Source: Niastella vici (lineage in GTDB: Bacteria > Bacteroidota > Bacteroidia > Chitinophagales > Chitinophagaceae). From it: a stretch of 64,000 nucleotides of DNA. Below, piece by piece: positions 33,149-58,589 of this stretch. The position numbers and the translations under genes were made by a program. Where the stretch lies: the NCBI RefSeq assembly GCF_002077945.1, contig NZ_LVYD01000002.1, forward strand, positions 186,001 to 250,000. The letters are read 5' to 3'. The notes below the pieces were generated by a model, which saw only the letters and a program-made list of their open reading frames with translations, was not told the DNA's origin and ran no database searches. Position 1 is the first letter of the stretch. Each line of letters begins with the position of its first letter.

Positions 33149-33808
33149 TTATAAAACTGAAGCGATGTGTTGTATCGCAATGCCTGGACTGGCCAGAATA
33201 GGTACCTTTTTATCTTCGGGCGCCAGGCTATCGGCAACACGGGCCATAGAAGCCTGGGCCAGTACAATGACGTCGGTTTTGGCGGATAATTCGCGCAATG
33301 CTTTTGCCACCATGGCATCATGCCTGGCTGCATCACCGCTCATCAGGGCGTCAAAAGCGCCTTCACATAAAACGGTTTCCAGCGCTATGGTTTTACCGGC
33401 AGCGGCGGCACGGCGTTTTACCAGGTCGCTGGTCGGTTGCAGCGTGGTTGACAGGGTTGCCACTACGCCGATCCTTTTTCCGGTTTGCACGGCTTTATCG
33501 GCCATTGGCTGATCAACCCGCAATACCGGTACGCTGGTCAATGCGGCAGCAGCTTCCACCGCCGCGCCAATAGAAGAACAGGTTACCAGAATAAAATCGG
33601 CCCCGGCCACTTCTGCCGAACCCACATAGTTCACCACCCGGCGGGCATTGGTGGGCGTTAACCCGCCACAACTGATCACGTTTTTGATGAGGCTGTCATC
33701 TACAATATTGAACACTTTTACCTGCGGCAAATACTCACTGCACAATTGCTGAAATACCGGTACCAATGTGGCAGAAGTGTGTATAAGCCCTAATGTTTTT
33801 TGTTGCAT
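33149..33808 (-). CDS. Asp/Glu racemase-fold protein lacking the second catalytic Cys
   Basis: A 219-residue cytoplasmic protein of the Asp/Glu/hydantoin racemase superfamily. The first catalytic Cys is present (Cys77 in VTCSSIGA). At the second site, where racemases have LxCT, the sequence reads VLAQASMARV near residues 182-191, without Cys. A two-cysteine racemisation is therefore unlikely; single-Cys members of the superfamily do other chemistry (arylmalonate decarboxylase retains one). The gene lies 29 bases downstream of the DUF1537 kinase and upstream of the BASS transporter, so a step in acid-sugar breakdown is inferred. No activity can be named. Confidence 0.8.
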   Translation of the reverse strand: MQQKTLGLIHTSATLVPVFQQLCSEYLPQVKVFNIVDDSLIKNVISCGGLTPTNARRVVNYVGSAEVAGADFILVTCSSIGAAVEAAAALTSVPVLRVDQPMADKAVQTGKRIGVVATLSTTLQPTSDLVKRRAAAAGKTIALETVLCEGAFDALMSGDAARHDAMVAKALRELSAKTDVIVLAQASMARVADSLAPEDKKVPILASPGIAIQHIASVL

Positions 33809-33837
33809 ACTATACTATTGTTTTACTTATGTTCAAA

Positions 33838-35193
33838 TCAATTCAGGCTGCCGTTCATCAGCACCTCAAAATAATTTTCACCGCCTACCTGTCCGCCCTT
33901 GAAATTCACCTGCAACCCATTGATCGAAGAACCGGGCGCAGTGGCTTTACATAAGGGTGCACCGGGCACCAGCGGCGCTATCATTTCCACCGCTTCAATG
34001 CCCATGGCCCTTGCCGCATAACTACTGGTGTCGCCCCCTGCAATTACAATGCGCTGAACGGTGCTCTGGGCCGCTGTTTCACTGGCAATAGCACCCAATG
34101 CAGTGCCCAGTTTATCGGCAGGCAGGTTAGCGGTTTGTTGATGCCCCGCGCCACCTGTATGAATAATTACGTGCTGTCCATTATTCAGGCATTCAACCGC
34201 TTTATCAATGGCAGCGTGAATAGACTCAACATCGTTATCGCATACTGCCGGTGCATCGATCAGGATCTCTTCAAATCCTTTTGCCTTGGCGCAAATGATC
34301 TGTCCGGCAGTCACCGGCGAGCAGCTTCCTGCTATCACCAGTAAGGGCGTTGCCTTGCCGGGATGTTTCCATTCTTTCACTTGTTGCAATTTATCAGAAG
34401 CATTCCAGTATTGCCCCAGGGCCATTTCAATGCCTGATGAACCTGCCGAGAACAAAGTGCCCTCGTTCGCCTGTGCATCTATCAACTCACCAATGGTGGT
34501 TAACTGCTCCTGGTACAAAGCATCGAACAGCACAATATCAAAATCCTGCTGAACGAGCTGCGCCCAATCGTTTTTGAGGGAAGCTGCGTTGCCTGATAAT
34601 TGCAAAATATCTATCAACCCAATTTGCTTTGTGGTTTGTTTTGACAAATGCACCCGCAGATCGCTTTCACCGGCCGGGGTTACCGGGTGACGGCTCATGG
34701 AAGGATGGCGGTCGAGCCGGTAGATCTTTCCATTGCTGCCAATACCCATGCGGGCAAATAAATTACCGAACATACAATAGCGGCCCAGCATGGGTGCAGC
34801 CACCAGCAACGGTATACATTTATTTTTAAAAACAGCCGCGCCGGTATCGATGGCTTTTCCAATACTTCCGGTGGTTGGGGAAGAATCGAAGGTGGAGCAT
34901 ACTTTATAATGTACGTGACGCGCACCGGTCAATTTTAATTTTTCAAATGCCGGTAATAAGGTTTGTTCCATTTCACCGGGCGCCATGGCCCGCGTTTTAC
35001 CGGCAACGCCAAACGCATTGAGACCGGGATATTTCTTCAACTGTTCAGCAGTTGGCGGCTCAATGAACAGCGCTGTCTTCGCCCCTGCCCTGGTGAGAAA
35101 TTCCAGGGCATCGGTTGAACCGGTGAAATCGTCACCGTAAAAGGCCAGTAATATGTTTTTACTTGAATCCATTGTGATGAAGTGTTCCTTCAT
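33838..35193 (-). CDS. Four-carbon acid sugar kinase family protein (DUF1537; OiaK/OtnK-like)
   Basis: A 451-residue cytoplasmic kinase with both domains of the family: N-terminal sugar-binding domain with FYGDDFTGSTDAL at residues 18-30 and HYKVCSTFDSSPTTGSIG near 95-112, and a C-terminal nucleotide-binding domain with IHTGGAGHQQ and VIAGGDTSSYAA. Known members phosphorylate D-threonate, D-erythronate or 3-oxo-isoapionate. Immediate association with a RuBisCO-like protein favours the last (OiaK of D-apionate catabolism), but that is inference. Met8 at 35172 is an alternative start. A GTTACC element occupies the gap to the upstream RLP gene. Confidence 0.9.
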   Translation of the reverse strand: MKEHFITMDSSKNILLAFYGDDFTGSTDALEFLTRAGAKTALFIEPPTAEQLKKYPGLNAFGVAGKTRAMAPGEMEQTLLPAFEKLKLTGARHVHYKVCSTFDSSPTTGSIGKAIDTGAAVFKNKCIPLLVAAPMLGRYCMFGNLFARMGIGSNGKIYRLDRHPSMSRHPVTPAGESDLRVHLSKQTTKQIGLIDILQLSGNAASLKNDWAQLVQQDFDIVLFDALYQEQLTTIGELIDAQANEGTLFSAGSSGIEMALGQYWNASDKLQQVKEWKHPGKATPLLVIAGSCSPVTAGQIICAKAKGFEEILIDAPAVCDNDVESIHAAIDKAVECLNNGQHVIIHTGGAGHQQTANLPADKLGTALGAIASETAAQSTVQRIVIAGGDTSSYAARAMGIEAVEMIAPLVPGAPLCKATAPGSSINGLQVNFKGGQVGGENYFEVLMNGSLN

Positions 35194-35208
35194 TGGTGAA
35201 TGTGATCT

Positions 35209-35295
35209 GTTACCGGTTACCTGTTTCCGGTTACCGGGAAATACAAGAGCATAGACTTCCGCGCCCCTGGTAACTGGTAACTGGCAACCGGCACC
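35209..35295. repeat. GTTACC-family heptamer inverted element, copy 7
   Basis: Left arm 35209-35238, right arm 35264-35295, with a short 25-base spacer lacking the shared core. It lies 5 bases after the RLP stop, inside the predicted operon. Confidence 0.8.
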
Positions 35296-35300
35296 TAATT

Positions 35301-36545
35301 CTATTTCTTGCCGAATTGCTTCACTGACTCTGCAAACTCTTTATACGTTGCAGCAGCCTGTTCTACGCTCAACCCTTCAACCGCGGCCTGCCATGCCTGT
35401 TGTAAGGCTACCACTCCCGCAGCGGCACCCATGGGATGGGCCATAATACCCCCACCGGCCATATACAACAGATCAACTGTATTTGTACGGCGGTAGGTTT
35501 CCGGTGCCTGTCCCCCCCACTGCCCTGAAGACACTACCGGTAATACCGGCTGGTGGTTATAGAAAGGCGTGAGACATGCTTTTATAGATGACACTACCGA
35601 ATCGTCTGATTCCCAGAATTTATTTTGAATACCATTCACATGCAACTGATCAACCCCGGCCAGCCGCCATACATGCTGATAGGCCCTGAAATCAATACCC
35701 AGCAAGGGATGACGCGTCAACATGCCCCAGCCATTGCGATGTGCATGTATGGCAAGCTGCCGCTGGTCACAGATCTTTTTAACCCCGGACATGCCTACAC
35801 TGTTTATGCTTACCATGGCGCAGGTTCCCCCGCTCTTTACTATTTTCTCATAGCGTTGCAGCATTTCATCTATTTCGCCACTGATATTAAATGCATACAT
35901 CACTTTTTTACCGGTTGCATCGGCATGGGCATTGATCACTTTCATAATGGCATCAACGCGGTCATTGAACAATGAATTGGCCGACTCGGCCAACAGTTCA
36001 TCATCTTTTATAAAATCAATGCCGGCGCCCACCAGCGTTTTAACCATGCCGGCAGTTTGCTGTGGCGTTAACCCAATGCTTGGTTTTATGATGGTGCCAA
36101 TCAATGGCCTGTTTTGTACATTAGTGAGTTTACGGCAACCTTTGATCCCAAAGGCGGGGCCTTTGTAATACCGGGCATAGGATGGCGGCAATTCAATATC
36201 CATCAGCTTTAAACCCGTAAACTGGCGCAATTCATACAAATTCCCCTGCAGGGTACTGATCAATACCGGCAGGTTATAACCGAAATTCTCCACACTCCAG
36301 GACACCTTGATCTCAGCCCGGTTGTATTGCCCGCTGCTGCTGGCGGCGCCGGGCATGGCCGGTGTTGATACGGTTTCCAGTGGCGTTACCTTTTCAACCC
36401 TTGCGGCAAACCGCTGTTTCAGTTCTTCCGTTTCACCCGGAACCGCTATGAAGGTGCCTGACGATTGTTCGCCGGCCAGAACTTCCGCGGCTTTTTCCGG
36501 AGCCAATGGTGTTTCTATATAGTATGTAGCTAATATTCTTTCCAT
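35301..36545 (-). CDS. RuBisCO-like protein (form IV), probable acid-sugar phosphate enzyme
   Basis: A 414-residue cytoplasmic protein of the RuBisCO large-chain superfamily. By motif alignment the catalytic residues are largely kept: Lys154 (spinach Lys175), carbamylation Lys180 with Asp182 and Glu183 (Lys201/Asp203/Glu204) in GIDFIKDDE, His269 and Arg270 (His294/Arg295), His302 (His327), Lys309 (Lys334), Ser340 (Ser379) and Gly365-Gly366. Lys177 is replaced by Ser156. In D-apionate catabolism RuBisCO-like enzymes (OiaC, OiaX) act on 3-oxo-isoapionate 4-phosphate, the product of a DUF1537 kinase like its neighbour. It starts 3 bases after the upstream GH78 gene's stop. Carboxylation of RuBP is not implied. 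Confidence 0.92.
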   Translation of the reverse strand: MERILATYYIETPLAPEKAAEVLAGEQSSGTFIAVPGETEELKQRFAARVEKVTPLETVSTPAMPGAASSSGQYNRAEIKVSWSVENFGYNLPVLISTLQGNLYELRQFTGLKLMDIELPPSYARYYKGPAFGIKGCRKLTNVQNRPLIGTIIKPSIGLTPQQTAGMVKTLVGAGIDFIKDDELLAESANSLFNDRVDAIMKVINAHADATGKKVMYAFNISGEIDEMLQRYEKIVKSGGTCAMVSINSVGMSGVKKICDQRQLAIHAHRNGWGMLTRHPLLGIDFRAYQHVWRLAGVDQLHVNGIQNKFWESDDSVVSSIKACLTPFYNHQPVLPVVSSGQWGGQAPETYRRTNTVDLLYMAGGGIMAHPMGAAAGVVALQQAWQAAVEGLSVEQAAATYKEFAESVKQFGKK

Positions 36546-36548: not shown

Positions 36549-38741
36549 CTAGTTCTTATAATTGATCACGTATTCCTTACCTGCTTCAACAGTCATTTCA
36601 TACGCATTATTTCCTTTACTGTTTATCACCACGCCTTTACAAACCGGTTTCTTCTGACTTTTGAACCGCAGTGTTCCGGTTCCTTCACTCCCCTTTATTT
36701 TTATTTGCGTGGTGCTGCAATATACCTCGATGTCGCCTTGCGGTGTAGGCACTTTTCCATCCATCCATTGCAAGCCACCCAATACCGGCTCGGCCACCCA
36801 GGTAGCATAACCCGGCGAGGTTGGTTGCACGCCAAGGTAATATTTACCCAACAGGTAAATGGGACTGGCGCCCCAGGCGTGGCAAAGGCTTTTATCAAAC
36901 GGACGGCCATACATGGCATAATGTTCTGCGCCCTGTTTGGCCGGATTGTATTCTTCCCAAAAGGAAGTAGCGCCTTCTTTCAGCATGCCACCCCAGTAAC
37001 TTTTCATTTCATTCAACACATATTTTTGCTCACCCATCGCGCACAATGCTTCCAGCTCATAAAACCGCATATACGGTGTGGTGATCTTTTGAATAGCATC
37101 ATTTAACAGCACGTGCTGTTTCACCAACTGTTTCTGCGTTGAATCAAAATAATTAAAGAAGATGGCAAACATGTTGGCGTAGCGGGTCACGTTATCGGTT
37201 GGTTTTCCATCGACCCGGCTGTGCACCAACGCATGTTTGGCATCGCTCCAGTAAATGGAAAACAATTTCGCTTTCATATCGGCAGCGAGCTGTTTGTACA
37301 ACGCTGCATTCTTTGTATCATTCACCATACCGGCGCAAAGCGCCATGGTTTCGAGGCTGCGGCAGAAAAGCAATTGCTCAAAACTCACCTCTCCTTTTTT
37401 ACTTAAGCCGTTGGCCCAGTCAATAAAGATCCAGTCACCGGGCAATCCCTGCATCATACCGGCTGCATTTCGCCGGCTGAGGCAATAGTCCATCAGGCTT
37501 TGCATGCGCGGGTAAAATTGCCTGATGAAAGTTTTATCGCCTGTGTACTGGTAATAATCATAAATGCCCAGAAACCAGTAAAAAGTATAATCCATGATGG
37601 TATTGATATGGCTGGTCACCGGGTCTTTACCGCGCAACGCCATCAGCGTGCGGGAAACCGTGGGCCTGTCAAAGAACAGGTAATAGTTCATCAGGTAGCT
37701 CTGATACGCATCGCCACTCCAGATCCATCGGTCGCGTTTAATGCCATCGATGAAGAATTCACGGGTATTAAGGTGCAAAGTGTATGCAGCCACATCCCAG
37801 ATCTTATTGATAGCTGAATCTGAACAACGGAAAGAACCGCGGTTCGCCACCGGTAAATACTCGTATAACATCGAAACAGAATCAACCGTTGCACCACCTT
37901 CGGCCTGAATATTCACAAAACGGAAAGCTTTTGTCAACGGCATCAGGGAATCTGTTTTCGATCCCTGGTTCACCTCCAGCCGGTCGAGGGTTTCGCAGGT
38001 ACCGGTGGCCAGCGCCTCTTCTTTCGATTCTCCATAATATAACGACAGTTTTCCTTTTCCCTGCAAGCCGTGTAATTTTATAAAGCCGAATGTTTCTTTT
38101 CCAAAATCTACCAGTAAGGACCCGTTATCTTTTGTAGTGGTCACTGCTGATTGGGGTTGAACCGCCAGCCTGAACGCAGAAGGGCGTTGTGCGGGTTCAT
38201 TGAAATTCCAGCTGCCGGCATTCAACCAGGTAGTGGCGGAAATATCAGACGTTTTCCCGGTTTCATCGATCCATTCCTTGTCTTCATACGTTACCAGCCA
38301 TGACGAATCAGATGCGATGGTTTTTCCCTTCACATAAATAGCCGGCACATTATCGCGGCTGAATACTTTTACATTGATGCGGTGTTTACCGGCAGGTATG
38401 GTTACCTGTTGCGGCATGCCTTCATACCCTTTCCCATCCAGTTTAAGGATATACTTCCCTTCTACCAATACCTCGATCTGTTCGGCTTCGGTTACCTCAA
38501 CATCTTTATGAAAATCCATCAGTACATAATGGTTATCGAGTTTCCAGAAAGGCGGAAAGAAGGAACCACGTTCTGTACGGCGGTTCTGCATATTGTTACC
38601 CAGCCAGATCTCAAAATCGCCGGGATACCAGATCCAGGTAGCCTGGTTGGTTAGCTTTGGCGCTGCCTCCCCTTTATAAGCCGGTTGCGCCCCGGCCGTG
38701 CCGGCGATCAATAATAAGAGTATCCAAATCGAGTGTTGCAT
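36549..38741 (-). CDS. GH78-like alpha-L-rhamnosidase family protein
   Basis: A 730-residue secreted protein. The frame opens at 38786, but a signal peptide starts at Met 38741 (MQHSIWILLLLIAGTAGAQ). An N-terminal beta domain (IEVLVEGKYILKLDG) is followed by an (alpha/alpha)6 barrel with DGIKRDRWIWSGDAYQ, the region holding the acid residue in GH78, and EGATSFWEEYNPAK, the region of the base. A small C-terminal domain ends the chain. It diverges from typical GH78 (no CPQRNER motif), so another deoxy-sugar is possible. Only 3 bases separate it from the RuBisCO-like gene, tying polymer breakdown and acid-sugar metabolism to one transcript. Confidence 0.82.
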   Translation of the reverse strand: MQHSIWILLLLIAGTAGAQPAYKGEAAPKLTNQATWIWYPGDFEIWLGNNMQNRRTERGSFFPPFWKLDNHYVLMDFHKDVEVTEAEQIEVLVEGKYILKLDGKGYEGMPQQVTIPAGKHRINVKVFSRDNVPAIYVKGKTIASDSSWLVTYEDKEWIDETGKTSDISATTWLNAGSWNFNEPAQRPSAFRLAVQPQSAVTTTKDNGSLLVDFGKETFGFIKLHGLQGKGKLSLYYGESKEEALATGTCETLDRLEVNQGSKTDSLMPLTKAFRFVNIQAEGGATVDSVSMLYEYLPVANRGSFRCSDSAINKIWDVAAYTLHLNTREFFIDGIKRDRWIWSGDAYQSYLMNYYLFFDRPTVSRTLMALRGKDPVTSHINTIMDYTFYWFLGIYDYYQYTGDKTFIRQFYPRMQSLMDYCLSRRNAAGMMQGLPGDWIFIDWANGLSKKGEVSFEQLLFCRSLETMALCAGMVNDTKNAALYKQLAADMKAKLFSIYWSDAKHALVHSRVDGKPTDNVTRYANMFAIFFNYFDSTQKQLVKQHVLLNDAIQKITTPYMRFYELEALCAMGEQKYVLNEMKSYWGGMLKEGATSFWEEYNPAKQGAEHYAMYGRPFDKSLCHAWGASPIYLLGKYYLGVQPTSPGYATWVAEPVLGGLQWMDGKVPTPQGDIEVYCSTTQIKIKGSEGTGTLRFKSQKKPVCKGVVINSKGNNAYEMTVEAGKEYVINYKN

Positions 38742-38789
38742 TATGGCATGCCTGCAATTCATCAAGGTTAGTTTTATAGAATGCAAAAA

Positions 38790-40370
38790 TTAATGTCCGT
38801 TAAAGAGTATATACAATCCCAACATTACCGCGAACAATAGGCCCCACATAGCCCATACCTGTTTACCAGGTTTGGCCAGGCTTTTATAATAAACGGCCTG
38901 CTGTATTTGCAAGGCGCCTTTTTTATCAAATAGGGAGACCAGGTATGTCATGGCGCTTAATACCACAAACAGATAGAACGACAGCAACAGGAAGTGCGGC
39001 CAGTTGCTGGATGGGATCACCCATAAATTCAGGATACCCACCAGCAAACAAAAAGCAGTTCCTGCAGTCAGTACATAATTGATGGCTTTGGGTGTTGTCT
39101 TTTTCCAAAGTACACCAAATAAAAATGCCACTGTCATCGGCGGCGCCAGAAAGCCCAGTACCGACTGAAATACGTTGAACAGGTTCAGTCCTTTTATATT
39201 ATCAATGGCCAGGGTTACCGTTACCGATATCAGGGCTCCGGCCACTGTAACGATACGGCCTATTCGCATGATCTCCCGGTTGGAAGCCTGCGGCCGGTAT
39301 TTTTTTACATAAATATCCATGGTAAAAACCGTACTCACCGAATTAAGCGAAGCGCCGATCGTACTTATTAAACAAGCCACCAGCACCACGATGATGAGCC
39401 CTTTCATCCCCGGCGGAAATAAATTGGTTACCATTACCAGGTAGGCTTCGTCAGGATTTTTTAAATGCGGATATAGTACAAAACAGATCACGCCCGGAAT
39501 GATAAACAGGGGCACATCCAGAATTTTCAACCAGCCAATAAAGTTAGCGCCCAGTTGTCCCTGTTTTAAACTTTTGGCGCCTAATACAGATTGCACCATC
39601 GATTGTTCTGTACACCAGAACCAAACGCCCATGATGGGATAACCCAGCAGAATAGCCGGCCAGGGACAATTTTTATCACTGGCAGGCTGAAACAGGTTCC
39701 AGAAATTTGAGGGCGTTTTTTCATAAATAGCGGAGATGCCGCCGGCTTTTGACACGCCGAGCACCACGAGTATCAATGATACAGCGATCAATAACAACAT
39801 CTGGAATACACTGGTATATGCAATGGTCTTTAAACCACCCGCTACTACAAACAGCGTGGATACTACTACCATGACCATCACGGAAAGCAACATATCCAAT
39901 CCCAGCAATTGTTTGATGAGCACCCCACCGGCAAATAATCCCAACGACAACCAGGAGATCAAAATGGTGATCAGGGTATACCAGGCCAGAATATTACGGG
40001 TATGCTCGCCAAACCGTTTTCCTAAGAACTCAGGGAGTGTTGATACATTGGCGCCCAGGTAACGGGGCGCAAAAACCACGGCCAGCATAAGGATAAACAC
40101 AAACGCATACCAGGCATAATTGCCCGCCACTATACCGGTTTGATAACCGGCGCTGGCCGAAGCTACCAGCATGGAGGGACCAACATTGGTTCCCCACATG
40201 GTAAAGCCGATACTGGCCCAGCCCAGTGAACGGTTGGCCAGGAACAGGTTTTCTTCCTTATTCTTTTTTTGCATGTAACTTACCCAGAACCCGATAGCGA
40301 TCAGGATGAACAGGTAAATTCCCACTATAACAAAATCGACCGGTTTTAGCAGATCATAGATGGCATTCAT
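38790..40370 (-). CDS. Sodium/solute symporter (SSS/SLC5 family)
   Basis: A 526-residue inner-membrane transporter with about 14 helices. It begins with a helix near residues 11-31, then RSLGWASIGFTMWGTNVGPSM, the conserved region of SGLT-like carriers near the first sodium site, and keeps ISTIGASLNSVSTVFTMDIY near residues 340-360, the SSS signature. SGLT-like carriers in Bacteroidota polysaccharide loci import released monosaccharides with Na+. Which sugar is unknown; apiose, rhamnose or galacturonate would suit the locus. It lies 48 bases upstream of the GH78 start and 36 bases downstream of the Gfo/Idh gene. Confidence 0.9.
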   Translation of the reverse strand: MNAIYDLLKPVDFVIVGIYLFILIAIGFWVSYMQKKNKEENLFLANRSLGWASIGFTMWGTNVGPSMLVASASAGYQTGIVAGNYAWYAFVFILMLAVVFAPRYLGANVSTLPEFLGKRFGEHTRNILAWYTLITILISWLSLGLFAGGVLIKQLLGLDMLLSVMVMVVVSTLFVVAGGLKTIAYTSVFQMLLLIAVSLILVVLGVSKAGGISAIYEKTPSNFWNLFQPASDKNCPWPAILLGYPIMGVWFWCTEQSMVQSVLGAKSLKQGQLGANFIGWLKILDVPLFIIPGVICFVLYPHLKNPDEAYLVMVTNLFPPGMKGLIIVVLVACLISTIGASLNSVSTVFTMDIYVKKYRPQASNREIMRIGRIVTVAGALISVTVTLAIDNIKGLNLFNVFQSVLGFLAPPMTVAFLFGVLWKKTTPKAINYVLTAGTAFCLLVGILNLWVIPSSNWPHFLLLSFYLFVVLSAMTYLVSLFDKKGALQIQQAVYYKSLAKPGKQVWAMWGLLFAVMLGLYILFNGH

Positions 40371-40383
40371 CGTTATACCCCCC

Positions 40384-40402
40384 AGCCCCCTAAAGGGGGA
40401 GT
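40384..40402. repeat. CCCCCTAAAGGGGG hairpin element, copy 1
   Basis: Perfect stem CCCCC (40386-40390) and GGGGG (40395-40399) with loop TAAA, in the 36-base gap between the Gfo/Idh and symporter genes. Very similar short elements are common in Bacteroidota genomes. Confidence 0.7.
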
Positions 40403-40406
40403 TTTA

Positions 40407-41474
40407 TTAAGACAATCCATGCGTTTTTAATATTTCACTCACTTTTACCGGCGCACCCGTTTTCAAAGATCTATCCATTGCCTGCAATAAGGCGATCGTT
40501 CCAATACCTTCTTTCAGATCAGGATAAGCCGTGGTATTGTTGGTGATGCTGTCGGCAAAATATTCCAGGTAATTCTGGTATTCACCGGCATGATGGCTTT
40601 GGCCTTCAAAACGGAAATAATATTTAATGGTCTTATCGCCCCATTGCACTATTTTTTCTTCACCGGTCTTATCAGTAATTGCGTAACGCAGTTCATGATA
40701 ATCGGCCTGGGAGGCGCCTTCGGTGCCCCGTACGATCACGCTCATGCCGCTATCTCTTTGTGCAGGTTGTATAGGCCCGGTGTAAGCGCCGCTTACCCGC
40801 GCAATGCGGCCATCTGTAGCCCTGAAGATAAAATGCATGGTATCTTCGTTCTTCAATCCGGCTGCTTTTCCATTACTACTGATCATTCCATATCCCATTA
40901 CTTCTTCAATATCGGGCAGGTACCAACGAATAAAATCTACCGGATGGCTTAACCCGCCATAGAGCCATTTGAACGAACTTTCCAAGGCCCATGATTTTTC
41001 TAAAAACCAGCGATGATCGGCGTGGTAATGACTTTCCACGGTAATGAGCTCACCCAGCAAACCAGCTTCAAAATCTTTTCGCTGTCTTTTGGCCGGCTCA
41101 AAGAACCGGGAGCTTTGACCTACAAATAGCTTTTTGCCGGTTTTATTCTGCAGATCGAGCAACTCTTTTGCCTTTGACAGGTCATCGATCAGCGGCTTGG
41201 TACAAACCACATGTTTGTTAGCCAGCAAAGCCTGTTTTATATGTTCGGCATGCCATTTATCAGGTGTATAAATGGCAATGCTATCAATCTCCGGATCGTT
41301 CAGCATGTCTTCATACTTTGTTGTATAATTGAAGAATTGAAACTCTTTGCTCCGGTGTTTGCACAGGTCTTCATTGAGGTCGCAGATCGTTTTTAATTTC
41401 ACCTTACTGCTGTTCAGTGCGGCAGACATGGTGCTGCGGCCTTCGCCTAATCCCAGTATTCCCAATGTAAGCAT
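40407..41474 (-). CDS. Gfo/Idh/MocA-family sugar dehydrogenase
   Basis: A 355-residue cytoplasmic NAD(P)-dependent oxidoreductase. The frame opens at 41519 across a CCCCCTGAAGGGGG hairpin; the true start is Met 41474 (MLTLGILGLGEGRST), giving the Rossmann loop at residues 5-11. The catalytic Lys is in VVCTKPLID (canonical EKP, here TKP), and GGLSHPVDFIRWY supplies the His and Asp of the substrate site. D-apiose dehydrogenase (ApsD) is a Gfo/Idh/MocA enzyme, so oxidation of apiose is an attractive role here, but the family is broad and this is inference from context. Confidence 0.87.
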   Translation of the reverse strand: MLTLGILGLGEGRSTMSAALNSSKVKLKTICDLNEDLCKHRSKEFQFFNYTTKYEDMLNDPEIDSIAIYTPDKWHAEHIKQALLANKHVVCTKPLIDDLSKAKELLDLQNKTGKKLFVGQSSRFFEPAKRQRKDFEAGLLGELITVESHYHADHRWFLEKSWALESSFKWLYGGLSHPVDFIRWYLPDIEEVMGYGMISSNGKAAGLKNEDTMHFIFRATDGRIARVSGAYTGPIQPAQRDSGMSVIVRGTEGASQADYHELRYAITDKTGEEKIVQWGDKTIKYYFRFEGQSHHAGEYQNYLEYFADSITNNTTAYPDLKEGIGTIALLQAMDRSLKTGAPVKVSEILKTHGLS

Positions 41475-41490
41475 ATAATTTGTTTTACCC

Positions 41491-41508
41491 CCAACCCCCT
41501 GAAGGGGG
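41491..41508. repeat. CCCCCTGAAGGGGG hairpin element, copy 2
   Basis: Perfect stem CCCCC (41495-41499) and GGGGG (41504-41508) with loop TGAA, in the 104-base gap upstream of the Gfo/Idh gene. Same orientation as copy 1. Confidence 0.7.
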
Positions 41509-41578
41509 CGAGCATTCATTGATTGTTATTGTTCCTTTTTAACCCCACAATTTGTTATGCCCCTCCATTTTTATACGC

Positions 41579-43450: not shown

Positions 43451-43471
43451 GTGTATCTAAAAAATAAACGG

Positions 43472-44359: not shown

Positions 44360-44387
44360 ACTATGAAAGGTTAACGGGAATGGTCAA

Positions 44388-45776: not shown

Positions 45777-45802
45777 TACTATTTTTATTAAACGTGAAAG
45801 AT

Positions 45803-45884
45803 ACCAGTTACCGGTTTCCAGTTACCGGTTACCGGGAAAGCCAAATACCGGCCTGGCCAACTGGCAACCGGTAACTGGCAACTG
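45803..45884. repeat. GTTACC-family heptamer inverted element, copy 8
   Basis: Left arm 45803-45836, right arm 45853-45884, spacer only about 16 bases. It is between the GH78-sialidase fusion and esterase genes, 11 bases after the former's stop. Confidence 0.85.
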
Positions 45885-45894
45885 ACTTTTTCTA

Positions 45895-49686: not shown

Positions 49687-49693
49687 TGTTCAA

Positions 49694-52495
49694 TTACTCC
49701 TTTCCAGAAAAATCAAAGAATAAGGTTATATCCTTTGCATACATCGGGTCTTTGCCATAATCATAGAACATATGCTTCTGCCCCATGGGCCCCATCTTCT
49801 CTGGTTTCTGCGACTTGGTACCAATGGGTGAAATGCCATGCATAAACGACAGATCGCCGGTTGGGAAAACAGGCGCGGTGTTGAATGGCGTTACCGAAAA
49901 CTTCGGCGTAAATAACCGCAGGAAAATGTCTTCATTATTGCACACCACTGTCAACAGCTGACCGGTAGTATTCAATTTCATCCAGTAGAAGTTTGAATAA
50001 TAGCCCTTGAACTCGGGATAGATCAATGTGCCTTCACCGGTTGATGTATTGTTGTAGTCCTTATTCCAAACATTCAGGGTACCGCCTTTCATCCGGTTCT
50101 TCCAAACGCGGTAAGGCCCGGCGCCCATCCATTGTACTGATTTCACCATGCTTTCAGGGAACGAAAAGTTAATGCCCACCAACGAGGTCTCATATTCTTT
50201 CGGGAAATACTTCACCTGCATTTTCACCCAGCCCGATGGATATACGGTCCACTCCAATAACTGGCAAAGACTTTTCTTTTGAAATTCGGCTGCAATCACC
50301 TGGGCATTTCCTTCTTTGCGGGTATTCCATTTTACAAAGCCGGTTTCGCCTTCACACAATACCGGGCCATTGCTCAATGGAATAATACCGTTGCCGTTTT
50401 GCACGGTTTGTAATAAGCCGGTCTTTGTATGAAAAGTAAGGCTTACATCACCGGCAGTAGCTACGATCAGGGAATCCTTTTCAGCAACCGTAACTTCAGT
50501 TTTGCCTTCTGTTTGTACGAAGATCCGCGCAACGTCAACAGGCAATTTAATTGGCCAGCTCCAGGTATATATTTCATGTTGATTCACGTCGTATGCAGTT
50601 ACATATAGCACACTGTATTGTTGCCAGTTAGCCGGCAGATTACAGGTGATGGCCCCTGTTGTACCCGGCTTAATATCCGGTACAGTCACTGTTCCGATAG
50701 CGTCGCTATTGAGGCCGTCCAGGGAAGTAAGTTTAAAGGTGAATTTACATTGATTGAGGTTGGTGAAATGATACCGGTTCTCAACACGTAATTGTCCGGT
50801 AAATGCGGGCGTAATGTCTTTCTTTTCAAAATGTACCGGCGCCCATATTTCTTTAATAGCATAATAACTGCCTTCTTTTTCATGATATGGCCCTACAATT
50901 CCATCGGGGGCATGATTGCCATCGGTATCAATACTGTCGTTTTTGTCTTTCCGCACCACGCCTTCATCGGCAAACACCCACAGGAAACCGCCGGCCGATA
51001 AGGGATGATGCCACATCAGCTCCCAGTAATCTTCCAGCGCTGCGCCTAAACCGCCATCGTATAAGCCATGTAAGAATTCAGTGGGGAAGGTGATCTTATG
51101 CCCGTGCAGGTGGGTTTCATTGCCATAATCGTAATTGATATAATGCTGGGTATCGAACTGGCGAAACACCTGCCAGGGATGGATCAATGGCCGTTGTTGA
51201 ATGTCCAACTCATCGAACCAATGATCGAGCTCAAAATTATGACCGCCTTCATTCCCATTATCCCAAACAATAATGGAAGGGTGATTGCAATCGTGCGCGA
51301 TCATCTCATGCACCAGCTTTGTTCCTACCTGGGTATCGTATGCTTTATGCCAGCCGCCCAATTCATCGAGCACCATTAAGCCCAGCGAATCGCAGGCATT
51401 CAGGAAATGCGCATCGGGCGGATAATGCGACATGCGCACGGCATTCATGTTCATGTCTTTTATCATCAGCACATCTTCAATGCTGCGCGTTTCATTCATG
51501 GCCCGGGCGGTAGTGGGCCAGAAAGAATGCCGGTTCACGCCTTTGAATTTTATTTTTACTCCGTTTAAATAAATGCCATCGCGTTCGCGCACTTCTACCG
51601 TGCGGAAACCAAACTTCTCCTGTATGGTATGCACCGGTTTGCCATTGGCCAGTAAGGTAAATTCAACCCGGTACCGGTTGGGGAATTCGGGCGTCCACAA
51701 CAAGGGCGATGCCAGGGTAGTTTGCAGGGTGGCTATGGAGTCGCCGCTTTTTATTTTAGTAGAAAATGCATTCCCTGCCTTTTGGCCATCCATGGTATAC
51801 AGCTGGGCAGTTACTTCATTTGCCTGCGCTAAGGCGGCCAGTTTTACTTTGGCAGTAAAAGCGCCGGTTGCTTTTCCATCTACGGCTACATGCGCCATAT
51901 GTTCAACCGGAAGCGCCTGTAAGAAAACCGGTCTGAAGATGCCGCCGAAGATCCAGTAGTCACCCCGGCGCTCGGCCCCATTCACCGATTCATTGGCAGA
52001 ATGCTTGCTCACCGTTACTTCCAGCAAATTCTTCTTACCATATTTCAACAGCTTCGTGATATCGTACAAAAAGCTATAGAAGGAACCCTGGTGGGTTTCG
52101 CCGGCCGATCTACCGTTGATCTTCACCTCGGTATCGGTCATGGAACCTTCAAAAACAATATTGATCGTCTTTCCCTGCCAGTTAGCGGGAACCATAAAGT
52201 TGTATTTATATAAACCCTGTTCTTTTCCGCGAACAGAATCTTTATCGAGCCCGTAATTGTATTTTCCAAAACCCTGCACTTCCCAGTTGGAAGGCACGGG
52301 AATGGTTGTCCATTTACCCGAATTGCGACCCGCTGTACAAAAGAACTGCCAGTTAACGGTTTTGTCGCTGCCCGTACCCGACAGGTATTGGATAGCGGTT
52401 TGTTGAGCGAATGAAATGCTGCAGGCTGCCAACGAAAGGCCACCAACCAACCCTTTTAATAAATTCCTTTTAATATTAGATTTCATGATCATCAT
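49694..52495 (-). CDS. GH2-family glycosidase (beta-galactosidase type)
   Basis: A 933-residue secreted enzyme. Met1 at 52495 or Met4 at 52486 starts the signal peptide (MKSNIKRNLLKGLVGGLSLA). Domain order is that of GH2: jelly-roll, immunoglobulin-like, TIM barrel (about 305-580), then C-terminal sandwiches including a Bgal_small_N-like domain. The acid/base is Glu416 in WDNGNEGG; the nucleophile is probably Glu473 in FPTEFLHGLYDGG. GH2 members include beta-galactosidases, beta-glucuronidases and mannosidases; all of the first two linkages occur in RG-II. It starts 5 bases after the upstream (alpha/alpha)6 gene ends. Confidence 0.9.
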   Translation of the reverse strand: MMIMKSNIKRNLLKGLVGGLSLAACSISFAQQTAIQYLSGTGSDKTVNWQFFCTAGRNSGKWTTIPVPSNWEVQGFGKYNYGLDKDSVRGKEQGLYKYNFMVPANWQGKTINIVFEGSMTDTEVKINGRSAGETHQGSFYSFLYDITKLLKYGKKNLLEVTVSKHSANESVNGAERRGDYWIFGGIFRPVFLQALPVEHMAHVAVDGKATGAFTAKVKLAALAQANEVTAQLYTMDGQKAGNAFSTKIKSGDSIATLQTTLASPLLWTPEFPNRYRVEFTLLANGKPVHTIQEKFGFRTVEVRERDGIYLNGVKIKFKGVNRHSFWPTTARAMNETRSIEDVLMIKDMNMNAVRMSHYPPDAHFLNACDSLGLMVLDELGGWHKAYDTQVGTKLVHEMIAHDCNHPSIIVWDNGNEGGHNFELDHWFDELDIQQRPLIHPWQVFRQFDTQHYINYDYGNETHLHGHKITFPTEFLHGLYDGGLGAALEDYWELMWHHPLSAGGFLWVFADEGVVRKDKNDSIDTDGNHAPDGIVGPYHEKEGSYYAIKEIWAPVHFEKKDITPAFTGQLRVENRYHFTNLNQCKFTFKLTSLDGLNSDAIGTVTVPDIKPGTTGAITCNLPANWQQYSVLYVTAYDVNQHEIYTWSWPIKLPVDVARIFVQTEGKTEVTVAEKDSLIVATAGDVSLTFHTKTGLLQTVQNGNGIIPLSNGPVLCEGETGFVKWNTRKEGNAQVIAAEFQKKSLCQLLEWTVYPSGWVKMQVKYFPKEYETSLVGINFSFPESMVKSVQWMGAGPYRVWKNRMKGGTLNVWNKDYNNTSTGEGTLIYPEFKGYYSNFYWMKLNTTGQLLTVVCNNEDIFLRLFTPKFSVTPFNTAPVFPTGDLSFMHGISPIGTKSQKPEKMGPMGQKHMFYDYGKDPMYAKDITLFFDFSGKE

Positions 52496-52500
52496 AGCTA

Positions 52501-54051
52501 TTATTCTATTGTTCCGGTAACGCGTTGCAGGTGCTCAGCCGAAGCCTTTTTCTTTCCATTCACCCATACACTCAGCCCCCTGCCCTTTTTATATTTAGCG
52601 CCTGTTTTGTCCCAGATGATGGTCACCAGTTTACCGTGGTACGATACATTGTCGAGACAAAACCAGTCCCATTTTTTTTCAGGGACCAGCGGGTTTACTT
52701 CTATTGTATTATCTGCACGCGGGCGCAAGCCTACCAAACCGGTTATCACCAGGTCGTTATAGGTGGAGTGGTTATAATAGCGGCTGCGCTCCTGGTCGCC
52801 TTTTAACCAATAGCCGGTCTTTTCATCGAGGTACTCGCCGATGTAAGGACGGCCGCGGTAGTATTGCGATTCTACATACAACTCCATCAACCGGAAATAC
52901 ACCGAATCATTTACTACGGTCTGTTTGTAGTTGTTCATTAAATTGGCCATGGCAGTCATGGTTTGCGCGGTGGCATAGGGCCAAACGGCGCCATCCCATT
53001 CGCATTTGCAACAACCATGGGTACGGAATTGCGGATGACTTCTTTCAGCAGTGGTAAGGCCAAATGGTGCACAGAAGCCGCTCTCCTCGGTTATCTTTTT
53101 CCAGGCCGCTTCATAACCCGTATCGGGCAGGTTGAAATACCAGGGAATAAATCCTATTTCTTCGCGCACATTGGCCATTGTATCGGCCTGCTTGCGGGTT
53201 TCAAAAAATGTATCTTTCGCATTCCAGAGAAGTTGCTGAACCCCTTTTTTAATACTGTCGGCCTTTGATGCATACAGCCCGGCCTTGGCTTTGTTACCGG
53301 CCAGGGTTTCCATATACGATAATGCCATTGCATTGCCATACATATAGCTGTTGATGGTTGGCCGCGCATTCTTTTCCTTTCTACCGCCGCTGATGGTTTC
53401 TTCCATACCATCTCTTACATCCGATTGCCAGAACAATCCGTTGGGCAAACGCTTTTCCATTTCCCATTTGGTATAATCTGTTTCCAGATCGGGCAGCAGA
53501 TCCAGTAAATAGCTGCTGTCGCCATTTACCAGGTAGCGGTTGTACAACGCATAGCTGTTCCAGCTGCTGAACCAATGCAATTTGTTCATGGCTTTGCCCT
53601 CGTTACCACGATACCAGATATGCAGGTAATCATTCAGGTATTTGTTATCGCGCAACCAGCGGGCTTCATATATATGATGGCCCAGCGCACTGCCAATGAG
53701 GTTGTATTTATCGGCATAGTTCCGGTTTATCAGGAATTCGGTAAACGCGTAGCCTGCCGGGGTTTGTTTCAGGTGTTTGCGCAAGGTCCACCAGCGGTAA
53801 TACCAGATCTCTTCAAAGTTCTGTTGCGGACATTCAAACAGGGGAATATTCACTTTCAGCCAGTCCCATGCCTGTGCATTGGGAACTGCCTGGGCAATAT
53901 TCTCCTCTTCCATGGTATTGAAATAATCCACATAATGACGGAACTGCTCCGCCTTCAATACAGCGCCGCCCGCAGCTTTGCTTTTTTGCGCAACAACGGT
54001 GCTTACACATAAGACAAACAAAAATGTTAATATACCTGCCCTTTGGTTCAT
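52501..54051 (-). CDS. (alpha/alpha)6 glycosidase, MGH1-like; possibly GH142
   Basis: A 516-residue secreted protein with signal peptide (MNQRAGILTFLFVLCVSTVVA). The body is an (alpha/alpha)6 toroid: EEIWYYRWWTLRKHLKQTP, HWFSSWNSYALYNRYLVNGD, DVRDGMEETISGG, RPTINSYMYGNAMALS, CCKCEWDGAVWPYATAQT and YNDLVITGLVGLRP are helix-loop motifs typical of MGH1/GH63-like enzymes. The next upstream gene encodes a sialidase-fold protein. Together they match, in order and total size, the bimodular BT1020 protein (GH143-GH142) of B. thetaiotaomicron, so I suspect GH142 beta-L-arabinofuranosidase activity. That assignment rests on architecture, not on alignment. Confidence 0.75.
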   Translation of the reverse strand: MNQRAGILTFLFVLCVSTVVAQKSKAAGGAVLKAEQFRHYVDYFNTMEEENIAQAVPNAQAWDWLKVNIPLFECPQQNFEEIWYYRWWTLRKHLKQTPAGYAFTEFLINRNYADKYNLIGSALGHHIYEARWLRDNKYLNDYLHIWYRGNEGKAMNKLHWFSSWNSYALYNRYLVNGDSSYLLDLLPDLETDYTKWEMEKRLPNGLFWQSDVRDGMEETISGGRKEKNARPTINSYMYGNAMALSYMETLAGNKAKAGLYASKADSIKKGVQQLLWNAKDTFFETRKQADTMANVREEIGFIPWYFNLPDTGYEAAWKKITEESGFCAPFGLTTAERSHPQFRTHGCCKCEWDGAVWPYATAQTMTAMANLMNNYKQTVVNDSVYFRLMELYVESQYYRGRPYIGEYLDEKTGYWLKGDQERSRYYNHSTYNDLVITGLVGLRPRADNTIEVNPLVPEKKWDWFCLDNVSYHGKLVTIIWDKTGAKYKKGRGLSVWVNGKKKASAEHLQRVTGTIE

Positions 54052-54076
54052 TTGTTTATTATTTCATTCAAACAGG

Positions 54077-54152
54077 TGAATGGTCAATGGTCAATGGTCA
54101 ATGAATATCTGCTATTTGGACTCGCGACTACTATTCACTGCTCACTATTCAA
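54077..54152. repeat. Heptamer element with unlike arms (GGTCAAT and ACTATTC)
   Basis: Left arm 54077-54103 has three to four GGTCAAT units; right arm 54128-54152 has ACTATTC, ACTGCTC, ACTATTC. The two arms are not reverse complements of each other. It fills the gap between the GH143-like and GH142-like genes. Confidence 0.65.
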
Positions 54153-54157
54153 GCATC

Positions 54158-56008
54158 CTACAATTCTTTTTTAGTTTTCAATGACTTAATACAATACGCT
54201 GCCGGTTTGGCCTGCACGCCGGGGTTGGCCAAATCGTACATTTGATCGGTAGGCGTATCGGCATCGGGAAAGCGGCGTATATCGCCGGTCCTGAATGTAA
54301 TGCGTTGCACATTTTCGATGGGCGCAAAGAAGATCTGGTTGCCCCCCTCCTGCTTTCCATTTACGGTTACAGTATAAAACCGGTTTGTGGTATTCAACGA
54401 CACGGTGATCTCATACTGTTTTCCGGCTTCGTATTTAATGATGTTCCTGTTCCTGTAGCCGGCCTTTACGATCAAAGTGCCTGTTGAATCAAATACCAGC
54501 CTGATGCCTGCATTGCCTTTTGCATCCTGAAACTCAATGTGCAGGTTACCATGGTCATTTTGTTGGGGAATAACCGTAAACGTAGCCTTCATTTTTTGGG
54601 CAGCTGGCAATACGTGCTCGGCTTTTCCATAATCAAAGGGATCTTTGTCTTTTATAGCCAACACCTGTGTTCCATCAGCCCCTTTTTCTATTGCTACCGG
54701 CGCCCACAGCGGACTGTAAATATTCCATTCTTTTAAGGCACTGGCAGCCGGCAGTGTGGTGAAATCATCATTCACATCCTGGTCAACTTTATCTTTCACC
54801 GGAATGGGAATGTTTGTAACCCAAATATCTTCTTTGTTCATGCTGTACGATACCCAGCAATTGCCATCGGGTGACTGGGCGCCTGCTTCGAGGCCACGTA
54901 CATATTGCGGTCCATAACTTTTGTAGTTGCCGCCATAACGCATGGAGGTGATATCGCCATTCACCAGCAACAGGTTCTTATAGTTCAATCCATCGTCACT
55001 TACCGATAATGCCAATGGCCAGCGGAACTCGGAGGGATTGTATACAGTGAGGTATTTTCCATCTGATGTACGTTGTCCCCAGATCTTGGCATTGCTGTTC
55101 ACGAAATGCGGCGCCCGTACCGGATTGTACAACCAGCTTTTGCCTTTATCGGTACTAATGGAGGTTAATGCAAGCTTCCACAAACCTACCGTGCGGCCAT
55201 CGGGCAACTGGTAAAAATTGAATGCTTTATAATTGTCATTATGTAATGTGAGCAATGGATCATTGCGGTCTGCTTCTTCAATCCATTGCAGCACCAGCAG
55301 GCTATTGCCCAACACTTCTTTACAGGCCTCTACAAATCCTTTGTCCCTGCTTTTTTCAAAGAATGGATACGCGGTATTTTTTTCATTGAACGCATGGTTG
55401 TAGCGGATGAAATAGATGGGTCCCAATGTGCCGTCCTTATAAATTTCCCGTACCACGCGGCCAATACCATTTCCATCATTGGGATCATCGTGGGGGCCCA
55501 ATACCAGGCCATAATAACCCAACATCAGCAAACGGTTTTTGGTGGAAATATAAAAACCCATGCGCTGGTGCATCACTGCCGAAAGGTTGTTGGCCACGCC
55601 ATTGTATCCTTCTTTGGTAGTACCATCGGGAATTTTATAAATTGGAAACGAGATCTTTGGCGCCGTCCAGTGATAACCGTCCTTAGAGGTCATCAGGAGC
55701 GATTGGCCCGGTGGCACGTGTTCGCCCACGGGGTTGCTCAGGTATTCGAGGTAGAAAGTATTGTTCCAGTACGTAAGCAGTGGCTGATGGTTATACGTCC
55801 AGCCAAAACCGGTGGTCGAATCTTTGATATCGCGGTTGGCCCGCATTACCTGGATGTTGTGTACGCCAACAGCCGGTGACAACTGGCCATGATGATAATC
55901 TACATTCGAGAGGGTAGTTCCAATATAACGCACGGTATCCTGGGCAGTAAGTTGTAAACTGCTCAGGACTATAAAGGTTGCTATTGATATTTTATAAATA
56001 CAATTCAT
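54158..56008 (-). CDS. Sialidase-fold secreted protein with C-terminal jelly roll; possibly GH143
   Basis: A 616-residue exported protein with signal peptide (MNCIYKISIATFIVLSSLQL). Residues about 25-400 have the beta-propeller pattern of sialidase-like enzymes (FGWTYNHQPLLTYWNNTFYL, MTSKDGYHWTAP, SISTDKGKSWLYNP, LALSVSDDGLNYKNLLL). Residues about 420-600 form a LamG-like jelly roll (NLHIEFQDAKGNAGIRLVF). Annotators usually call such proteins exo-alpha-sialidase, but sialic acid is unlikely in this locus. The BT1020 sialidase-fold module (GH143) hydrolyses Dha, a ketose of RG-II side chain D, and this gene plus the next reproduces that architecture in two proteins. The repeat-filled gap between them is 106 bases. 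Confidence 0.75.
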   Translation of the reverse strand: MNCIYKISIATFIVLSSLQLTAQDTVRYIGTTLSNVDYHHGQLSPAVGVHNIQVMRANRDIKDSTTGFGWTYNHQPLLTYWNNTFYLEYLSNPVGEHVPPGQSLLMTSKDGYHWTAPKISFPIYKIPDGTTKEGYNGVANNLSAVMHQRMGFYISTKNRLLMLGYYGLVLGPHDDPNDGNGIGRVVREIYKDGTLGPIYFIRYNHAFNEKNTAYPFFEKSRDKGFVEACKEVLGNSLLVLQWIEEADRNDPLLTLHNDNYKAFNFYQLPDGRTVGLWKLALTSISTDKGKSWLYNPVRAPHFVNSNAKIWGQRTSDGKYLTVYNPSEFRWPLALSVSDDGLNYKNLLLVNGDITSMRYGGNYKSYGPQYVRGLEAGAQSPDGNCWVSYSMNKEDIWVTNIPIPVKDKVDQDVNDDFTTLPAASALKEWNIYSPLWAPVAIEKGADGTQVLAIKDKDPFDYGKAEHVLPAAQKMKATFTVIPQQNDHGNLHIEFQDAKGNAGIRLVFDSTGTLIVKAGYRNRNIIKYEAGKQYEITVSLNTTNRFYTVTVNGKQEGGNQIFFAPIENVQRITFRTGDIRRFPDADTPTDQMYDLANPGVQAKPAAYCIKSLKTKKEL

Positions 56009-57074: not shown

Positions 57075-57091
57075 GATCGTTTATCAAGAAT

Positions 57092-57177
57092 CAGTTACCA
57101 GTTACCGGTTGCCAGTTACCAGGGACTGCTCATATTTTGGTTTTCCCGGTAACCGGAAACTGGTAACCGGCAACCAG
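57092..57177. repeat. GTTACC-family heptamer inverted element, copy 10
   Basis: Left arm 57092-57126, right arm 57145-57177, spacer about 18 bases. It occupies the gap between GH140 and GH43 genes, 23 bases after the GH140 stop. Confidence 0.85.
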
Positions 57178-57200
57178 TTTCACAAATCAAAACCAGGATA

Positions 57201-58589
57201 CTACAAGTAATCCAGTACCAACACCCAATCATTCCCCTCTTTCACCTCCCCCGGTGCATCGAACTCCTGCACGCCTTTATTCGCAAAGGAACCGATAGTC
57301 GTATACTTTCCGTCGCGAGGATTGTACCACGATGCTTTGATGCTTTTACCGGTGAGTTTATCCATCTTTACTGAAATGTTTCGGCCGGTATAGGTATACA
57401 CCATCGCATAATGCCGGCCACGGGTAGCAAACAGGCGGTCATATTTCTCCCCAGCCTCTCCTGCTATCAACGACTGATCGGGCACGCGGTCGAAATATGA
57501 TCTCGACAGCATCAGGTCTTTGAGATATCCCATTTGTGCGGCGCCGGGCGCGTTGATGGCTTCATACCAATAATTGGTCACCCCATAATTGCCATCGGTA
57601 TCGTTGGGCCGGTGCATTTGCATTACGGCATTGTTGCCATACGTATAACCACAGCCGCCGGCAAATACACTCCACCAGGCATACCGCCGTACATCATTGG
57701 CGTTCCACCTTACTTCAAGCGAGTCATGCAATCCCTGGGGGATCTCTTCATACGATGGCTCTCCATCGAATGTTGGCTTCGCCGGCTTTTTACGAAGATC
57801 CATTTCTATGTATTTCCAGTTGTCTTCGCCATAATGCAGCTCACCGGCGCTGGTGTCCTGGTTATAACGGCGGTGACCACTTTGAAACATGTTGAACTGC
57901 AACCAGGGCTCATTGTGGAACCAGATAGAGGAGGTGGTGCGGCCACGCGGATGAAAAGTGATCAAATGACCGGGATCTTTTTCATGCAATGTTTTACCGA
58001 TCATTTGCCATACGGCCATAGAATCTGAACCTTTGATATCGCCGCCATTCATCCACACTATATTGCTTTGCGACCTATAGCGGTTTGCCAGGAAGGTTGC
58101 GTATTGGTTTGCCTGGGCCGGTGTTACCTTGCCTGCTTTTACTTCGCTGCCCCAAATAGGCACCATCGCTATGTAAATGCCTCTTTCTGCGGCGGCTTTG
58201 ATCACAAAGTCTACATGGTCCCAGTAGTCGTATTGCGCGGCATCACCGGCATTATTGCCCGGTGTGGTGATGGGCATGGCCACATTAGCTTCTTTTAAAG
58301 CAGCGTCGCCATAGGCATTCACTACTTTGGTGGTATGCAGCACCATTACCTGTATCACATTAAACCCTTTTTGTTTGCGATCATCCAGGTATTTAATAAC
58401 TTCTTCCCGTTTCAGTTTTGAGAACAATAACCAGCCGGTATCGCCCAACCAGAAGAAAGGCTTTCCATCGGCCGTCATAAAATAGCGGCCATTGGGCGAC
58501 ACTTTCAATGGCTGCAGCTCAGCCAGCGCCGTTGAACAAACAAACAACAATAAAACCGGGATGATCCTTAACATATTTGTACGCTTCAC
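57201..58589 (-). CDS. GH140-family apiosidase (DUF4038 with C-terminal collagen-binding-like domain)
   Basis: A 462-residue secreted enzyme with signal peptide (MKRTNMLRIIPVLLLFVCST). The opening PNGRYFMTADGKPFFWLGDT is diagnostic of DUF4038 TIM barrels. Asp184 (WMNGGDIKG) and Glu277 (TFDGEPSYEE) are the probable acid/base and nucleophile, with spacing like that recalled for BT1012 (Asp187, Glu284). The C-terminal part (SWYNPRDGKYTTIG) is the small beta domain labelled putative collagen-binding. GH140 cleaves the apiose-galacturonic acid link at the base of RG-II side chains A and B. This is the key gene for reading the locus as RG-II or apiogalacturonan degradation. Confidence 0.88.
   Translation of the reverse strand: MKRTNMLRIIPVLLLFVCSTALAELQPLKVSPNGRYFMTADGKPFFWLGDTGWLLFSKLKREEVIKYLDDRKQKGFNVIQVMVLHTTKVVNAYGDAALKEANVAMPITTPGNNAGDAAQYDYWDHVDFVIKAAAERGIYIAMVPIWGSEVKAGKVTPAQANQYATFLANRYRSQSNIVWMNGGDIKGSDSMAVWQMIGKTLHEKDPGHLITFHPRGRTTSSIWFHNEPWLQFNMFQSGHRRYNQDTSAGELHYGEDNWKYIEMDLRKKPAKPTFDGEPSYEEIPQGLHDSLEVRWNANDVRRYAWWSVFAGGCGYTYGNNAVMQMHRPNDTDGNYGVTNYWYEAINAPGAAQMGYLKDLMLSRSYFDRVPDQSLIAGEAGEKYDRLFATRGRHYAMVYTYTGRNISVKMDKLTGKSIKASWYNPRDGKYTTIGSFANKGVQEFDAPGEVKEGNDWVLVLDYL

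Follow-up and report, generated by a model that had tools for sequence, protein, structure and literature searches.

The 64,000-nucleotide stretch of the Niastella vici genome analysed in this work (the window) carries a RuBisCO-like protein (RLP; 414 aa, 35301–36545; PF00016, E 2.4e-66), a DUF1537 acid-sugar kinase (KIN; 451 aa, 33838–35193; PF07005/PF17042), an Asp/Glu-racemase-fold protein predicted to be an aldose-ketose isomerase (RACE; 219 aa, 33149–33808) and a BASS-family anion symporter predicted to import sugar acids (BASS; 448 aa, 31666–33012; PF01758). At 26015–28033 lies a GH127 aceric acid hydrolase of the BT1003 type (NF049879, 1154.5 bits, cut-off 950; PF07944), whose N-terminus resembles a signal sequence. 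These genes, and all others given below from 26015 onwards, are on the minus strand, and the part of the window between about 26 kb and 64 kb looks, judged by its gene content, like a degradation locus for rhamnogalacturonan-II (RG-II). Gene calls are open reading frames (ORFs) with Pfam profile matches, and NCBIfam models provided the family cut-offs; G denotes a genome and L an RLP-bearing locus, the source genome (10.06 Mb) being G000, with the window on contig C2 as L001. An earlier note on this DNA had placed a GH140 apiosidase, the RLP, the kinase, a Gfo/Idh oxidoreductase and a BASS transporter in one minus-strand run, and all five are present by ORFs and Pfam, the BASS gene falling just outside the interval then noted. 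It had named the racemase-fold protein but not the conservation of RLP, KIN, RACE and BASS as a set, and the aceric acid hydrolase, which lies beyond its interval, went unmentioned. Its observation of the genes is thus confirmed, and its interpretation, a route from apiose through apionate, is partly supported.

Judged from gene orders across genomes, RLP, KIN, RACE and BASS form a four-gene cassette that is gained or lost as a block. Among 80 loci, mostly from Bacteroidota with some labelled Verrucomicrobiota, taken as the best 80 (66–91% identity) of at least 570 RLP-encoding contig stretches and surveyed in DNA of up to 10 kb on each side of the RLP gene with L001 excluded, KIN occurs near the RLP in 76, RACE in 75 and BASS in 75, and several of the loci without cassette members are short contigs. 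Other window families are rarer there: the GH127 hydrolase type in 41 of the 80, GH2 in 23, GH106 in 19, the Gfo/Idh/MocA oxidoreductase (GFO) in 14, a xylose-isomerase-like TIM-barrel protein (TIM) in 9 and GH140 in 4. A draw of 375 Bacteroidota genomes contains an RLP of the window clade (>640 bits) in 8 and RACE (E 1e-20) in exactly those 8; a ninth RLP (G087, contig C26, 60297–61529) is merely 30% identical, and its genome has no RACE at 1e-20. Two pairs of related genomes display the block directly. The order BASS-RACE-KIN-RLP-hydrolase-GH106 of G080 corresponds in G138, of the same genus, to hydrolase-GH106 with no cassette, and the cassette together with a GH2 gene is inserted between GH106 and the hydrolase in G150 and is gone, with that GH2 gene, from G269 of the same family, where GH78, SSF and GFO remain. 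Neither G138 nor G269 has a clade RLP or RACE anywhere in the genome, and kinase and BASS are absent from the matching stretch, the part checked for these two. At L013 no kinase was detected near the RLP; there and at L009 the RLP lies between a GH127 hydrolase and a BT1020-like gene, and the cassette seems split or incomplete.

Among recognised genes, the one that most often directly adjoins the cassette is that of the hydrolase type. Of the 63 loci with at least one window-family gene, 30 have the hydrolase type as the one closest to the cassette and none has GH140 in that place, and in 25 loci the hydrolase type lies within 160 bp. Gene order could be established for 70 loci, and in 25 of these the hydrolase type immediately precedes the RLP, upstream and on its strand. 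With E 1e-283 chosen as a stand-in for the 950-bit cut-off of NF049879, 32 of 37 GH127 proteins (35 of the 41 from the loci, the one of the window and the one of L108) reach that model at this value or better. Where the hydrolase is missing from the flanks, it is mostly found elsewhere, as 38 of 39 such cassette genomes encode one (34 over the cut-off), and the four of the 39 that have no GH140 at 1e-90 do have a hydrolase homologue, at 844–911 bits and so under the cut-off. In the 375-genome draw, GH140 occurs in 21 genomes and the hydrolase over its cut-off in 19, with 18 in common, and all 8 cassette genomes have the hydrolase over the cut-off; these 8 and the 80 loci partly overlap, in that G406 (L067) gave hydrolase and GH140 places identical to those of G021. 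Genome-level co-occurrence was rejected as a means of telling apiose from aceric acid, since both sets hold all 8 cassette genomes; GH140 being in 8 of 8 as well, the argument therefore rests on adjacency, on missing apionate enzymes and on chemistry. Hypergeometric values for the co-occurrence take no account of relatedness and are given no weight.

Aceric acid, 3-C-carboxy-5-deoxy-L-xylose, is a sugar acid of RG-II, and alone among the known RG-II sugars it has the fitting branched hydroxy-acid skeleton. Based on these findings, we propose that the cassette probably serves the catabolism of aceric acid freed from RG-II by the GH127 hydrolase of the locus. In the route that we infer from the observed gene content, conservation, adjacency, co-occurrence and residue patterns, BASS would import aceric acid, RACE would isomerise the aldose to HOCH2-CO-C(OH)(COOH)-CHOH-CH3, and the kinase would phosphorylate C1 of this ketose. 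The RLP would then act like OiaT, through decarboxylation, recarboxylation on C2 and hydrolysis, the carboxyl group moving inside the enzyme, to give 3-phosphoglycerate and L-lactate. The full route, from aceric acid and ATP to 3-phosphoglycerate and L-lactate, redox-neutral and with no net loss of CO2, is put forward tentatively, with the chances somewhat against it; the L configuration of the lactate is a prediction. The chemistry would call for four functions (isomerase, kinase, RLP, carboxylate transporter), one for each gene, and for no redox cofactor. TIGR00273, which we take to be the model for L-lactate oxidation, matches all 8 cassette genomes (5 over the cut-off), and it matches 18 of 19 genomes overall, including 10 of 11 others, and is therefore not cassette-specific.

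The closest known chemistry is that of D-apionate, for which Carter et al. reportedly described, in 2018, pathways with OiaK and either OiaX or OiaT; PMC6302742 and PMC10176493 cite that work. The substrate form of OiaX and OiaT is P-O-CH2-CO-C(OH)(COOH)-CH2OH, and the aceric acid ketose would be 3-oxo-isoapionate with CHOH-CH3 replacing one CH2OH, that is, with one extra methyl. As the cassette would, the D-apionate pathways employ a DUF1537 kinase and then an RLP on a phosphorylated 2-hydroxy-2-carboxy-3-keto sugar; they also have ApnO, ApnL and ApsD, whereas the cassette has RACE and BASS instead, and no such relatives were found with it.

The closest named relatives of the RLP belong to Niastella, Longitalea and further Chitinophagaceae. 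A clade set of 82 (the window, the 80 loci and a Rufibacter plasmid) was compared with 18 references, RLPs encoded on plasmids of Proteobacteria and haloarchaea, of which 6 are annotated OiaX and 12 are not. The kinship of the window RLP to OiaX, which the earlier note had suggested, holds in so far as OiaX (NF042437) is its best NCBIfam model, although its 526.7 bits miss the cut-off of 700 and the annotated OiaX of L084 scores 777.3; a place among the MTRu-1-P enolases, which would have spoken against the note, finds no support, the scores being far under the cut-offs of those enolases. Identity to the 18 references is 45–53%. In what we take to be RuBisCO numbering, E60, T65, N123, T173, K175, K201, D203, E204, H294, R295, H327, K334 and S379 are kept in 82 of 82 RLPs, with F replacing W66 and S replacing K177, and the clade is marked by S84, Q100, Y232, I321 and M362. 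The 12 non-OiaX references share the catalytic-residue pattern, F and S included, except for N at the K177 position in L119. In contrast, the 6 annotated OiaX all have D60/G123/Q327, a pattern derived in this analysis and not a published criterion, where the window RLP and all 82 clade members have E60/N123/H327. In one FastTree phylogeny rooted on OiaX, the 82-member window clade (support 0.976) is sister to the 12 non-OiaX references (0.957; joint node 0.997). Because the RuBisCO catalytic residues are kept and the RLP branches beside the non-OiaX references, an OiaT-like reaction is suggested, with which the residue pattern is no more than compatible; the predicted substrate is the ketose form of aceric acid phosphorylated at C1. 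Both decarboxylase and transcarboxylase RLPs are described in PMC6302742.

For the kinase, too, the likeness that the earlier note had drawn is borne out, OiaK (NF042436) being its best NCBIfam model at 405.1 bits, though the cut-off of 700 is missed. An OiaX-linked Rhizobium kinase reaches only 472.2 bits on the same model, and the OiaK cut-off is therefore a strict one. KIN is predicted to phosphorylate the C1 hydroxyl. The nearest NCBIfam model of the BASS protein is PanS (216.4 bits, cut-off 400). RACE has the fold of the Asp/Glu racemase superfamily, members of which (1jfl, hydantoin racemase) have two catalytic cysteines, whereas RACE has one, the second being alanine: C77 is kept and A186 stands at the position of 1jfl Cys194, each of these two residues being shared by 98% or more of 76 sequences. 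This is the protein that we predict to be the aldose-ketose isomerase.

Several points weigh against the aceric acid proposal. On the enzyme side, a sugar isomerase built on the racemase fold is not known to us, and a verified OiaT sequence was sought as a reference and none was found, the relative P0002 bearing an OiaT-type name from JGI. On the genomic side, the 80 loci are a selected set; 39 of them have no hydrolase in the flanking DNA examined; and in the window itself a GH106 alpha-L-rhamnosidase (28050–31565; PF17132, E 2.8e-172) separates the cassette from the hydrolase. At L009, a full-length locus, the RLP stands without kinase, RACE or BASS for 10 kb to either side. Eleven of the 19 genomes with the hydrolase over the cut-off are without a cassette RLP, so that users of RG-II can do without the cassette. 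Within the draw, GH140 occurs in all 8 cassette genomes; it also occurs, at 1e-90, in 35 of the 39 whose cassette has no hydrolase nearby, and G376, represented by the short contig L007, has GH140 and no hydrolase match. An ApnO-type gene stands beside the RLP in only 5 of 19 annotated plasmid loci (L084, L087, L088, L089 and L120), a frequent and not a fixed partner in apionate-type loci; its local absence is therefore not unusual, and its genome-wide absence is the stronger argument. The cassette also adjoins the housekeeping gene metA at L040 and lies beside CoA-transferase III, MaoC and Gfo/Idh genes at L015 (3361–9995), L028 and L034, the neighbours at L028 and L034 being identified by sequence cluster only.

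Within the aceric acid proposal, and as a sub-case of it, the RLP may only decarboxylate, leaving a 5-deoxy-pentulose-1-phosphate for an aldolase, with a rhamnulose-1-phosphate-type enzyme splitting 5-deoxy-L-xylulose-1-phosphate to dihydroxyacetone phosphate and acetaldehyde. Decarboxylating RLPs of the family are known from PMC6302742, and the RhaEW aldolase/dehydrogenase is reported for Bacteroidetes in PMC3870299. However, E60/N123/H327 in every clade RLP and in none of the 6 annotated OiaX argues against plain decarboxylation, the cassette contains no aldolase, and classical RhaD (TIGR02624) was found in 0 of 8 cassette genomes, which weakens this variant, the fused RhaEW not having been searched for. 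We regard it as possible though doubtful.

A different acid of the branched or hydroxy kind, derived from RG-II or from another source (one of the hamamelose type, for instance), would make the tie to RG-II a matter of plant-polymer lifestyle, and to this we give a small chance. It would account for the cassettes that stand alone, away from recognised RG-II genes, and for those beside CoA-transferase and MaoC genes; a D-hamamelose pathway with an RLP oxygenase has also been published, as listed among the references of PMC10176493. Against it, a hydrolase is encoded in 38 of the 39 genomes that have none locally, the hydrolase type is the leading direct neighbour, and among the known RG-II sugars only aceric acid has the right skeleton.

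The apiose/apionate reading of the earlier note holds that GH140 frees apiose, the Gfo/Idh enzyme oxidises it, some replacement lactonase and oxidoisomerase follow, and the kinase and RLP process 3-oxo-isoapionate. The closeness of RLP and kinase to OiaX and OiaK is in its favour, as are the wide occurrence of GH140 in cassette genomes and the case of G376. The apiosidase is at the locus as reported (57201–58589; PF13204 catalytic domain, E 1.1e-115); it is, however, a member of the RG-II degradation set outside the cassette, and in the survey of 80 loci GH140 stood close to the RLP in only 4, against 41 for the GH127 hydrolase type. G035, G219 and G253 have GH140, no hydrolase over the cut-off and no clade RLP. 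Isomerisation would be redox-neutral, in line with a cassette without a dehydrogenase, whereas the entry from apionate to 3-oxo-isoapionate is, as we reason, an oxidation.

Nor do the enzymes of apionate entry appear. On the L084 and L089 plasmids the RLP-kinase pair goes with a phosphogluconate-dehydrogenase-C-terminal protein (ApnO type) and a Gfo/Idh protein (ApsD type), L089 having additionally a protein that matches the ApnL model under the cut-off, and L120 likewise has ApnO-type and ApsD-type genes with its pair; the ApnO and ApsD references on plasmids were chosen by gene context, and we take them as such. At E 0.001 the ApnO reference matched both control plasmids and none of 19 Bacteroidota genomes, and the ApnL reference, itself under the ApnL cut-off (NF049900, 312.8 bits, cut-off 750), matched 0 of 8 cassette genomes and both controls, with a partial match in G190, a genome without the cassette. 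The GFO of the window (40407–41519; PF01408) is where the earlier note had it, though the longest ORF runs to 41519 and the note's 41474 would be a later start. Its proposed identity as ApsD is not supported: a partial alignment with the ApsD-type references gives only 20–24% identity, the other three references being 45–65% identical to that of L084. It occurs in only 14 of 80 loci and persists in G269, which lacks the cassette. It is neither ApsD-like nor a cassette member. The TIM-barrel protein (43472–44359; PF01261), offered as a substitute lactonase or oxidoisomerase, is also outside the cassette and probably not cytosolic, because its N-terminus reads as a lipoprotein-type signal. Apiose is therefore an unlikely substrate of the cassette, and the least probable of those weighed here. 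Entry of apiose through a split transketolase was likewise dropped, as only 2 of 22 genomes contain the C-terminal half at 1e-60, the window genome not among them, and it therefore gives no general answer.

Some loci have further neighbours worth recording. Transketolase halves lie near the cassette at L037 (2–3729) and L080 (132–6732), the latter also with ribose-type ABC transporter genes, and a glycerol-kinase-like FGGY kinase lies near it at L044 (16505–18049) and L080; we take these neighbours to resemble an apulose transketolase route for apiose. L015 and L028 additionally have a solute-binding protein and an MFS transporter near the cassette, and with L034 they possibly carry a second operon for another acid. 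L053, labelled Williamsia (an actinobacterium), has a Bacteroidota-like cassette and RG-II-type genes, and is probably a mislabelled metagenome bin. RLP-kinase pairs at L086 (7989–12644), L107, L111 and L118 come with an SDR-type dehydrogenase, a KDG permease (L086) or a TRAP transporter (the other three), with no annotated ApnO-type gene in the stretches, and may belong to a different branched-acid pathway, for example that of hamamelose. At L108 (5175–9528), on a Croceibacterium plasmid, an alphaproteobacterial RLP-kinase pair lies directly downstream of a distant GH127 gene, near annotated fucosidase, beta-galactosidase and sialidase-family genes and with no annotated racemase beside it; as this GH127 is about 25% identical to the hydrolase and does not reach NF049879 at the threshold used, L108 was set aside as independent support and kept as a hint only.

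Between RLP and GH140, at 36549–56008, Pfam matches identify other carbohydrate genes: two alpha-rhamnosidases (presumably GH78), an SSF transporter, GH141, an esterase (presumably BT1017-like), GH2, an MGH1-like and a BT1020-like gene. The gaps of 3–5 bases that had been noted between some genes were measured as 3 bp (RLP-GH78), 3 bp (GH78-SSF) and 5 bp (GH2-MGH1). A gene for a DUF5703 protein (window 22826–25165) recurs close to the cassette, at 17 of the 80 loci. With the RG-II genes of Bacteroides thetaiotaomicron, which we take to be the BT1001–BT1021 region, the window shares the aceric acid hydrolase, GH140, GH106, GH141, the esterase and the BT1020-like protein. That this species degrades RG-II is described in PMC7939467, and BT1003 is given as the aceric acid hydrolase in PMC5698469. 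In B. ihuae, a Bacteroides genome used as a control, the hydrolase passes the cut-off, and this genome does not figure among the controls that gave an RLP match. Among the matches listed, no publication on aceric acid catabolism was found by title or abstract, in a search that covered subscription literature only partly.

In conclusion, if the cassette does serve aceric acid catabolism, a relative of RuBisCO would gain a new substrate and the racemase fold a new reaction, and the cassette of Bacteroidota and, as labelled, Verrucomicrobiota would be explained. The question would then reduce to a test with three small soluble enzymes.

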